Below are positions 26,140 through 29,619 of a stretch of 40,351 nt of DNA, piece by piece. Location: positions 1 to 40,351 of the forward strand of contig CAIQHJ010000183.1 of assembly GCA_903871575.1 (NCBI GenBank), written 5' to 3'. A model generated the notes under the pieces. The model searched no databases, was not told the origin of the DNA, and was given only the letters and a program-made list of their open reading frames with translations. The stretch comes from an uncultured Bacteroidota bacterium (GTDB lineage Bacteria > Bacteroidota > Bacteroidia > Chitinophagales > Chitinophagaceae). The stretch's first letter is position 1; each line of letters begins with the position of its first letter. The position numbers and the translations under genes were made by a program.

Positions 26140-26256
26140 ATGAAGGTAAGAGCTTCAATCAAGAAACGCAGTGCAGATTGCAAAATCGTGAGAAGAAAAG
26201 GCCGTTTGTATGTAATCAACAAAAAGAATCCTCGTTTTAAACAAAAACAAGGATAA
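26140..26256 (+). CDS. rpmJ: 50S ribosomal protein L36
   Basis: Not in the ORF track (38 aa). Translates to [38 protein letters not shown]. Confidence 0.96.
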
Positions 26257-26293: not shown

Positions 26294-26671
26294 ATGGCTC
26301 GTATTGCCGGTATAGATTTACCAAAAAATAAAAGAGGAGAAATTGGACTTACCTATATATATGGTATTGGCCGTTCTACTGCAAAGTACATTTTAACCAA
26401 GTCGGGTATCGATTTGAATAAAAAAGTAAATCAGTGGAATGATGACGAACAAACAGCAATTCGTAATGTCATCAACAATGAGTTTAAAACTGAAGGTGCT
26501 TTGCGTAGTGAAACACAAATGAACATCAAGCGTTTGCTTGATATCGCTTGTTATCGTGGATTGCGTCATCGTAAAGGTTTGCCTTTGCGTGGTCAGCGTA
26601 CACGTACGAATAGCCGTACTAGAAAAGGTAAACGCAAGACAGTAGCAGGTAAGAAAAAAGTAACGAAGTAA
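26294..26671 (+). CDS. rpsM: 30S ribosomal protein S13
   Basis: [55 protein letters not shown]. Confidence 0.98.
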
Positions 26672-26761
26672 TTTGAATTGAACTCCATTGGAGTTTATAT
26701 AAGACTTATTTTTTGAATCATACGCTAGATCGCTTGTAAGTCGGCAGGAGGGTTGGTTCAC

Positions 26762-26785
26762 CCCGAATATTCGGGTTTATTTTTA
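26762..26785 (+). terminator. Terminator-like palindromic hairpin in the rpsM-rpsK gap
   Basis: cccga-atat-tcggg followed by tttattttta. Confidence 0.45.
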
Positions 26786-26808: not shown

Positions 26809-27222
26809 ATGGCAAAAGCACAAAATCAAAAAGCGCTCAGCGCAAAAGCAGCTGCAAAAAAGCGTATTGTAAAAGTTGATAGCTATGGAGATGCACATAT
26901 CTCTGCAACCTTCAACAACATTATCATCAGTTTGACAAACAAAAACGGACAAGTTATTTCATGGTCATCTGCAGGTAAAATGGGTTTCAAAGGAAGCAAA
27001 AAAAATACACCATATGCTGCACAAATGGCTGGCGCTGATGCTGCAAAAACAGCTATCGACGCAGGTTTGAAAAGAGTTGATGTGTATGTGAAAGGACCAG
27101 GAAGTGGTCGCGAAGGCGCTATTCGTTCATTATCACAAAGTGGTTTGGAAGTTTCAATGATTAAAGACATTACACCAATGCCACACAATGGCTGTCGTCC
27201 TCCAAAGAAAAGAAGAGTATAG
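26809..27222 (+). CDS. rpsK: 30S ribosomal protein S11
   Basis: [61 protein letters not shown]. Confidence 0.98.
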
Positions 27223-27239
27223 TATATATTTTATAACCG

Positions 27240-27292
27240 GATGTAGCATTCATTTAAAGACCTTTACAATGCTGCATCGTCACTAAAAGGTC
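27240..27292 (+). promoter_or_regulatory. Candidate structured RNA leader (H-type pseudoknot) upstream of rpsD
   Basis: 11-bp stem GATGTAGCATT (27240-27250)/AATGCTGCATC (27268-27278), one G-U. Loop segment GACCTTT (27259-27265) is perfectly complementary to AAAGGTC (27286-27292), 13 nt before the rpsD ATG. Confidence 0.6.
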
Positions 27293-27305
27293 ACTAAACA
27301 ACATT

Positions 27306-27911
27306 ATGGCAAGATATACAGGCCCCAAAACAAAAATCTCCCGCAGATTCGGAGAACCCATCACTGGCAATGGCAAGTGGTTAACCAAAAACAGCAATCC
27401 TCCAGGACAACATGGTGCAAACAAAAAGCGTAAAACCTTGAGTGAGTACGGTGTTCAGCTGAAAGAAAAACAAAAAGCAAAATACACATATGGTTTGCTT
27501 GAGAAACAATTCCGTAAAACATTTGAAGAAGCAGCTCGTAGAAAAGGCGTAACAGGTGAAAACTTGATTAAGTTGTTGGAAGCTCGTTTGGACAATACTG
27601 TTTTCAGAATGGGAATTGCACCAAGCCGTCAAGCTGCTCGCCAAATGGTGAGTCACAAACATATTACCGTAAACGGTGAAATTGTAAACATACCTTCATA
27701 CAGCTGTATGCCAGGTGATGTTGTTGGATTGAAAAACAAAAGTGCAGCCAATACCGCTATCACTGGTAATGTTCGTGCAAAGAATGTTAAGTTTAGCTGG
27801 TTGGATTGGAGCGAAACAGAATTGAAAGGTACGTTTATCGCTTATCCAGAAAGAGAAAGTGTTCCAGAAAATATCAAAGAACAATTGATCGTCGAGTTGT
27901 ATAGTAAGTAA
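27306..27911 (+). CDS. rpsD: 30S ribosomal protein S4
   Basis: [61 protein letters not shown]. Confidence 0.98.
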
Positions 27912-27984: not shown

Positions 27985-28980
27985 ATGGGCATTTTTAATT
28001 TTGTTAAACCAGATAAAATTGTTCTTCAAAAAGCAAACGATTTCGAAGCACAATTTGAATTCAGACCATTGGAGCCAGGATATGGCGTAACAATTGGCAA
28101 CGCTTTAAGAAGAGTGTTGTTGAATTCATTAGAAGGATATGCAATCATTGGAATCAATATTGCAGGCGCAGATCATGAGTTTGCAACCTTGAAAGGCATT
28201 ACTGAAGATGTTACCGAAATTATCTTGAACTTAAAGCAAGTTCGCTTCAAATCTAAATTGGATCACGAAGTGAATGTTGAGAAAGTTACCTTGTCAATCA
28301 AAAACAAAACAGAATTCAATGCAGGAATGATTGGAGAAGCTTCTCCATCTTTTGAAGTGATGAATCCTGAATTGTTGATCTGCACATTGGATAACAGCGC
28401 AAAATTTGATATCGAAATCACCATCGGAAGAGGTCGCGGTTATGTTCCTGCTGAAGATCAAAAAGAAAAAAGTTCTCATTTCGGATATATTCCTGTAGAT
28501 GCGATTTATACCCCAATTAAAAACGTGAAGTATTTAATTGAAAATACCAGGGTAGAACAACGTACGGATTTCGAAAAATTAATCATGGAAGTGATTACCG
28601 ACGGAACCATACATCCAGAAGAAGCTGTAAAACAAGCATCTCGTATCTTGATTCAACACTTGATGATCATCACAGATGAAAACATCACTTTTGATACCAA
28701 AGAAGATAAAAAAGAAGATTTAGTAGATGAGCAAACTTTACAGTTGCGCAAAATGTTGAAAACACCACTTGAAGATTTAGATCTTTCAGTTCGTGCGTTC
28801 AACTGCTTAAAAGCTGCAAAAATCAACTCACTTAGCGAATTGGTTCAATACGAACAAGAAGACTTAATGAAATTCAGAAACTTTGGTCAAAAATCTTTAA
28901 GCGAAATCGATCAGGTTTTGCACGAAAGAGGATTGAGCTTTGGAATGGATTTGAGTAAATTAAAATTAGACGACGAGTAA
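27985..28980 (+). CDS. rpoA: DNA-directed RNA polymerase alpha subunit
   Basis: FEFRPLEPGYGVTIGNALRRVLLNSLEGYAI; alpha-CTD LSVRAFNCLKAAKINSLSELVQYEQEDLMKFRNFGQKSLSEI. Confidence 0.98.
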   Translation: MGIFNFVKPDKIVLQKANDFEAQFEFRPLEPGYGVTIGNALRRVLLNSLEGYAIIGINIAGADHEFATLKGITEDVTEIILNLKQVRFKSKLDHEVNVEKVTLSIKNKTEFNAGMIGEASPSFEVMNPELLICTLDNSAKFDIEITIGRGRGYVPAEDQKEKSSHFGYIPVDAIYTPIKNVKYLIENTRVEQRTDFEKLIMEVITDGTIHPEEAVKQASRILIQHLMIITDENITFDTKEDKKEDLVDEQTLQLRKMLKTPLEDLDLSVRAFNCLKAAKINSLSELVQYEQEDLMKFRNFGQKSLSEIDQVLHERGLSFGMDLSKLKLDDE

Positions 28981-29049: not shown

Positions 29050-29619
29050 ATGCGTCACGGAAACAAAAAAAACAACTTAAGCAGAACCGCTTCACACAGA
29101 AGAGCGTTGTTAATGAATTTAGGTTGCCAGTTGATTACTTACAAAAGAATCACTACAACATTGGCTAAAGCTAAAGCATTGCGCACGTATATCGAGCCAT
29201 TGATTACAAAAACAAAAGCTACCGAAAGCAAAGAAGTAATCATGCACAATCACCGTATCGTTTTCAGTTATTTGAATGATAAGGCAGCCGTTAAAGAATT
29301 ATTTACTGTTGTTGCTCCAAAAGTAGCAGATCGTCCGGGAGGTTATACCCGCATCATCAAGCTTGGCGCTCGTACAGGTGATAACGCTGAAATTGCAATG
29401 ATTGAATTGGTTGACTTTAACGAAATCTACGGCAATTCAATCGGAGAAGCCGGCGAAGCAGTTAAAAAGACACGTCGCTCTGGGTCTAAGAAAAAAGCTA
29501 CAGCTGATGCTGCTGTTGTTGCAGAAGCATCTACAACAAATGAAACGCCAGCAATAGATGATGCTCCAGATACTACCGCTTCAACTGATGCAGAAGAAAC
29601 ACCAACTACTGAAGCATAA
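29050..29619 (+). CDS. rplQ: 50S ribosomal protein L17 with C-terminal extension
   Basis: [53 protein letters not shown]; Ala/Thr/Asp/Glu-rich tail. Confidence 0.96.

Follow-up and report, generated by a model that had tools for sequence, protein, structure and literature searches.

What occupies the 83-nt gap between rpsK and rpsD in the alpha operon of this bacterium, and could it control the synthesis of ribosomal protein S4? In the window, by which we mean the whole 40,351-nt stretch of DNA analysed, the original prediction placed an S4-binding, H-type pseudoknot directly upstream of rpsD. Its reading of the sequence is exact throughout: an 11-bp stem encloses a 17-nt loop, GACCTTT within that loop is complementary to AAAGGTC downstream, and 13 nt separate the latter from the rpsD ATG. 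The knot spans positions 27240-27292 (Table 1), with stem 1 closing the loop at 27251-27267 and helix 2 crossing it. Counting the A of the ATG (at 27306) as 0, its 3′ end lies at -14. Among named entries in genome collections, the encoded rpsD protein is best matched by Chitinophagaceae (Ferruginibacter-like).

Table 1. Features of the alpha operon and of the rpsK-rpsD pseudoknot (window coordinates)
Feature	Position	Strand	Basis or comment
rpsM	26294-26671		NCBIfam
rpsK (uS11), neighbour 5′ of the knot	26809-27222	+	NCBIfam
Stem 1 (S1), 5′ arm GATGTAGCATT	27240-27250	+	Pairs with 27268-27278; 11 bp, one G-U
Loop 1 CATTTAAA, consensus N-A-U-U-U-U	27251-27258	+	Base counts in 100 relatives
Helix 2 (S2), 5′ strand GACCUUU, in the loop	27259-27265	+	97/99 Watson-Crick at both pairs beside the U run
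Loop 2 (AC)	27266-27267	+	2-3 nt in most relatives
Stem 1 (S1), 3′ arm AATGCTGCATC	27268-27278	+	Direct reading and covariation in alignment A1
Loop 3 (GUCACUA)	27279-27285	+	7 nt in 71/100 relatives; spans the stem-1 groove in the pseudoknot
Helix 2 (S2), 3′ strand AAAGGUC	27286-27292	+	Covariation; junction-proximal UUU/AAA in 93/100 relatives
A-rich 13-nt spacer up to the rpsD ATG, part of the SD-less initiation region	27293-27305	+	Direct reading
rpsD (uS4), presumed regulated gene and presumed ligand source	27306-27911	+	NCBIfam NF003717/TIGR01017, above cut-off
rpoA, 3′ in the operon	27985-28980	+	NCBIfam
rplQ (bL17), 3′ in the operon	29050-29619	+	NCBIfam

Two further features of the operon lie upstream of rpsK. 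A small protein encoded at 26140-26256, between infA and rpsM and below the cut-off length of the ORF list, is evidently rpmJ (L36). The rpsM-rpsK gap contains, at 26760-26785, a hairpin CCCGAATATTCGGG and then TTTATTTTT, which is terminator-like despite its site within the operon.

Structure and covariation of the knot

The comparison drew on the rpsK-rpsD gaps of over 100 relatives, along with about 110 loci sampled elsewhere in the Chitinophagales and Bacteroidia. The original prediction had staked itself on compensatory changes in related gaps, and both helices have them. In a plain MAFFT alignment of 50 sequences, made with no structure fitting (A1), 89.6% of cells pair, 7 of the 11 stem-1 pairs have changed on both sides, and double changes occur at 4 of the 7 helix-2 pairs. 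The covariation score of this alignment is 0.375, compared with 0.184 when partners are shuffled and at most 0.156 when they are slid.

Helix 2 was assessed separately, with stem 1 alone fixed. For this we used a covariance model (R1) that describes stem 1 alone, whose alignment anchors the comparison of loop and flank. Pairing of loops with their own flanks scores 17.64, against 14.58 ± 0.25 with permuted flanks (0/10000 permutations). Reading the bases beside the loop U run and the flank A run independently on each side, we found the two variable helix-2 pairs next to this run to be Watson-Crick in 97 of 99 cases each, where 48.7 and 52.4 are expected by chance. On the rpsD tree, the states of these pairs changed at least 15 and at least 12 times, and independent contrasts at the first and second pair are concordant on both strands in 7/7 and 5/5 cases. 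Matching variants among relatives include GACCTTT/AAAGGTC, GGTCTTT/AAAGACC, GATTTTT/AAAAATC, CCGCTTT/AAAGCGG, GGCCTTT/AAAGGCC, ACGCTTTT/AAAAGCGT and AGACTTTTT/AAAAAGTCT, with more besides. With two crossing helices and compensatory changes in each, a pseudoknot of the H type, maintained by paired mutations, is strongly supported.

Folding statistics give a different picture depending on whether the crossing helix is represented. The combined stem-1 and helix-2 score of the 83-nt gap was matched by 0/2000 dinucleotide shuffles. Its nested fold is unremarkable (z = -1.47) because the folding program cannot form a pseudoknot, and RNAalifold, in which a pseudoknot is likewise not representable, recovers just six stem-1 pairs from A1. 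The deciding evidence is comparative, not folding energy. Taken as an isolated duplex, helix 2 is weak, at -2.5 to about -9 kcal/mol; stem 1, at -14.1 kcal/mol in the window, is the stronger of the two, a combination that suits a knot that opens and closes.

Conservation extends beyond the paired positions. The typical family member combines a stem 1 of ~11 bp and a loop starting N-A-U-U-U-U with a helix 2 that is varied but matching. Positions 2-6 of loop 1 are A-U-U-U-U in 98, 93, 100, 100 and 98 of 100 relatives, respectively, and loop 3 begins with G in 97 of 100. Loop 1 is mostly 7-10 nt long, and loop 3 mostly 7 nt across the 11-bp stem; by the precedent of frameshifting knots with 11-bp stems, such loop lengths would be feasible. 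A 9-nt direct repeat that had also been singled out, GTCACTAAA, does exist at 27279-27287 and 27290-27298, but only its first copy, made up of loop 3 and the first bases of the 3′ strand of helix 2, is kept in relatives. The second copy is unconserved, and we rejected the repeat as a functional part.

Distribution and subtypes

Of 246 Chitinophagaceae genomes, 178 (from 71 of 94 genera) contain a single match to the stem-1 model R1, and wherever a match could be compared with a mapped rpsD (19 cases), it ends at the ATG of that gene. One match upstream of rpsM (L051:737-827, 33.9 bits, E 0.0045) has the look of a hairpin arisen by chance in AT-rich DNA, and we set it aside. Among 20 R1-negative genomes that we checked, 19 have readable upstream DNA, and 15 of these carry a divergent form of the knot. 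It is missing from the other four (L126, L253, L263 and L264), which have no Rfam leader at rpsD in its place; the knot is thus not essential everywhere in the family.

In the divergent form, the 3′ strand of helix 2 often reaches to 0-3 nt from the ATG, and stem 1 looks, in much of this group, as if it contained a tandem G·A step. Aligned separately (A2), these sequences are 90% paired, with 10/18 pairs double-changed and a covariation score of 0.425 vs 0.165. A second covariance model built from A2 (R2, again describing stem 1 only) matches once per genome in 76 of the 246 genomes, of which 55 had been missed by R1 and 21 are shared with it. The coordinates of the two models coincide wherever both are listed, which links the two forms. 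Together, R1 and R2 match 233/246 Chitinophagaceae genomes (95%).

Outside the family, R1 found zero matches in ~128 other Chitinophagales and ~145 other Bacteroidia genomes, where stricter filters can lose weak matches. A score attained by 85% of the family is attained by 0/110 loci outside it, and the median rpsK-rpsD gap is 147 nt within the family vs 38 nt outside. The H-type pseudoknot proposed directly 5′ of rpsD inside the alpha operon is borne out by the covariation of both its helices, and it is confined to one family. In many Chitinophagaceae (L009, L017, L020, L037, L047 and others), 60-170 nt of lineage-specific, inverted-repeat-rich DNA lies between rpsK and the knot.

Most relatives have 12 or 15 nt between the knot and the ATG, corresponding to two subtypes; where the knot abuts the start, this spacer is 0-3 nt. 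An extra helix, TTCATTT/AAATGAA, closes the knot in one subtype: 38 sequences have both of its strands, 74 have neither and 4 have one only. This subtype (found in L016, L020-L022, L028, L030, L060, L062, L071, L074-L080 and others, and not in the window) also carries one bulged nucleotide in the 3′ arm of stem 1. An upstream GCC/GG hairpin could compete for its TTC, and within the AAATGAA strand, close to where rpsD starts, lies a misplaced AUG that the extra helix hides.

Candidate ligand and mode of control

Bacteroidia initiate translation with no Shine-Dalgarno (SD) pairing, and depend instead on adenines at -3, -6, -12 and -13 together with low structure (PMC9976891). Because initiation relies on these features, an RNA fold occupying -14 to -20, or extending as far as -1, would be expected to hinder it. 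The position of the knot, its weak helix 2, the SD-less start and the AUG-hiding subtype all point to translation initiation as the controlled step. Our main reading, to which we assign a probability of roughly 0.6, is that the knot represses rpsD translation initiation in a uS4-dependent manner.

Under this reading, the rpsK-rpsD gap of Chitinophagaceae carries a cis-acting H-type pseudoknot RNA, with stem 1 (~11 bp) coaxial with a helix 2 of 7-9 bp that joins the stem-1 loop to the stretch just 5′ of the rpsD start. Free uS4 would probably bind and stabilise the knot, which would then fill the upstream half of the 30S footprint and stop rpsD initiation; through coupling, rpoA and rplQ may be repressed as well. 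Once uS4 is consumed by 16S rRNA, helix 2 would open and free the A-rich, SD-less initiation region. Initiation may not be blocked completely, since in the window the knot ends at -14 and the final 13 nt stay unoccupied.

The choice of uS4 as ligand, which we consider somewhat better than an even bet, is made by analogy of position. We found no conserved resemblance to the S4 site of 16S rRNA: the longest match to a relative's 16S is 9 nt, equalled by 30% of shuffled leaders, and this match (GATGAACGC), which falls in helix 3 of one relative, is unconserved, within chance, and was set aside. Imitation of the 16S site is optional for S4 leaders, and several known ones do without it. The missing resemblance leaves position alone to name the ligand.

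That position ties the knot to the rpsK-rpsD boundary only, and together with the absence of rRNA mimicry it gives some room to a leader that senses a different operon product or ligand, such as S11, S13, bL17, the RNA polymerase alpha subunit or a small molecule. We regard this as improbable, since S4 is the established regulator both in E. coli, where it binds the operon mRNA before rpsM, and in B. subtilis, where it binds its own rpsD leader (PMC10931766). Presumed S4 leaders also occupy the same rpsK-rpsD gap in other Bacteroidia, although their assignments are themselves computational (PMC7247131), and no second copy of the knot was found at another gene in the 246 genomes.

About equally improbable, in our estimate, is an element that responds to no ligand at all, and that would set the rpsD:rpsK translation ratio in the manner of a fixed brake or insulator, or would block read-through re-initiation or RNase decay between the cistrons. 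The tight spacing to the ATG in each subtype is what any initiation-tuning element would have, and structure by itself reduces initiation in Bacteroidia (PMC9976891). A plain hairpin would suffice for such a task, however, whereas loops 1 and 3, as well as the U-A pairs at the junction, are kept across dozens of genera, which suggests a recognised tertiary fold.

Control of transcription, by a terminator, attenuator or internal promoter, would suit a long gap between two cistrons, yet we give it very little weight: neither helix has a U-tract after it, a promoter-like TTG-N17-23-TANNTTTG site is absent from 131 gaps, and the covarying pairs are RNA pairs that form the knot. Finally, chance inverted or direct repeats, for which the AT-rich gap and its modest nested z-score might speak, are refuted by the A1 covariation, the own-flank pairing and the tree-based pair test, with their independent compensatory changes; the shuffles also speak against them, as do models that match 233/246 family genomes and none in ~273 others. 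An unannotated short ORF is opposed by the stop codon directly after the sole ATG within the window's stem 1.

An H-type knot places its loop 1 in the deep groove of helix 2, where it runs parallel to the 3′ strand of that helix, and a U-rich loop 1 set against U-A pairs is the U·A-U triplex arrangement of telomerase RNA and the SAM-II riboswitch. Given this resemblance, it is a reasonable prediction that loop 1 serves as a third strand, forming a major-groove U·A-U triplex with helix 2. Anchored in the invariant uridines of loop 1 and in the U-A pairs at the junction, this prediction about tertiary structure is precise and testable. More tentatively, and at odds we would put below even, the Chitinophagaceae may have evolved a family-wide class of S4-responsive leaders, in which a triplex-stabilised H-type knot switches SD-independent initiation, where other Bacteroidia carry unrelated S4 hairpins. 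Because Bacteroidia skip SD pairing, the knot offers a defined test of a translation switch built from RNA structure with no SD to hide.

Comparison with known leaders and pseudoknots

The original prediction had allowed that the knot might belong to a leader class already catalogued for Bacteroidetes, a suggestion that the Rfam scan does not bear out. At the gathering threshold, Rfam 15 returned nothing in the window and nothing in eight knot-bearing relatives. In these sequences RF03139 (S4-Bacteroidia, cut-off 34.7 bits) and RF03141 (S4-Flavobacteria, cut-off 35.2 bits) are unmatched, while control loci score 46.5 (L212) and 45.7 bits (L235) with the former and 50.7 (L224), 45.2 (L225), 36.1 (L213) and 35.5 bits (L201) with the latter. 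RF00140 (Alpha_RBS, 38 bits) reached 25 bits at best and 13.9 in the window. Such weak matches sit away from the knot, at the start of rpsM; in the loci checked, namely L071, L254 and that of the window, they cover the start codon of this gene and its conserved first codons. RF00140 belongs over the rpsM ribosome binding site, and the knot precedes rpsD.

Since nothing in Rfam 15 matches it, in a search that does retrieve the known S4 leaders from the corresponding gap of other genomes, we take the knot to be an uncatalogued, structurally distinct rpsD leader. We found no description of a Chitinophagaceae rpsD leader in the open-access literature. Like other r-protein leaders, it is a conserved, covarying RNA directly 5′ of an r-protein gene, and it is a new, family-specific pseudoknot leader outside every catalogued family tested. 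A cis-regulatory role is supported, and the knot probably operates much as known S4 leaders do. Leaders of r-protein genes are a textbook case of one regulatory task with unrelated RNA solutions, to which this adds a structurally distinct rpsD leader that has strong covariation support, occurs across a large bacterial family and is not in Rfam 15.

Its counterparts in position are the hairpins of other Bacteroidia. PMC7247131 describes S4-Bacteroidia and S4-Flavobacteria as hairpins that resemble neither one another nor earlier S4 leaders nor the rRNA, and their ligands are assigned computationally; we compared them with the knot through their Rfam models. S4-Bacteroidia (RF03139), a computational candidate, likewise sits in the rpsK-rpsD gap upstream of rpsD-rpoA-rplQ, but it is a 34-nt hairpin with a conserved GCGGCUG tail, and no Chitinophagaceae locus tested matches it. 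S4-Flavobacteria (RF03141) shares the position and presumed ligand of the knot and differs in being a 33-nt hairpin (GAUUAUCGAAGGA...). As a separate observation, the S4-Bacteroidia tail AAUCGCGGCUGC (L212:648-680, minus strand; L235:520-558, plus strand) includes a 9-nt segment, CGCGGCUGC, whose reverse complement is the stretch GCAGCCGCG of the 16S 530 loop, near the S4 site; this complementarity could be chance or a real rRNA-like contact.

The B. subtilis rpsD leader, through which S4 represses its own gene, contains no pseudoknot (PMC10931766) and belongs to an rpsD outside the operon; we obtained no Rfam match to it here. The E. coli alpha operon site (RF00140) is, like the present element, a pseudoknot in this operon, with S4 as its ligand and translational repression as its outcome, but it lies before rpsM and not rpsD.

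In architecture, the knot resembles the H-type knots with U·A-U triples of telomerase RNA and the SAM-II riboswitch. Context and ligand differ, and the triples are here predicted from sequence alone, but all share a U-rich loop 1 facing junction U-A pairs and an A-rich loop 3.
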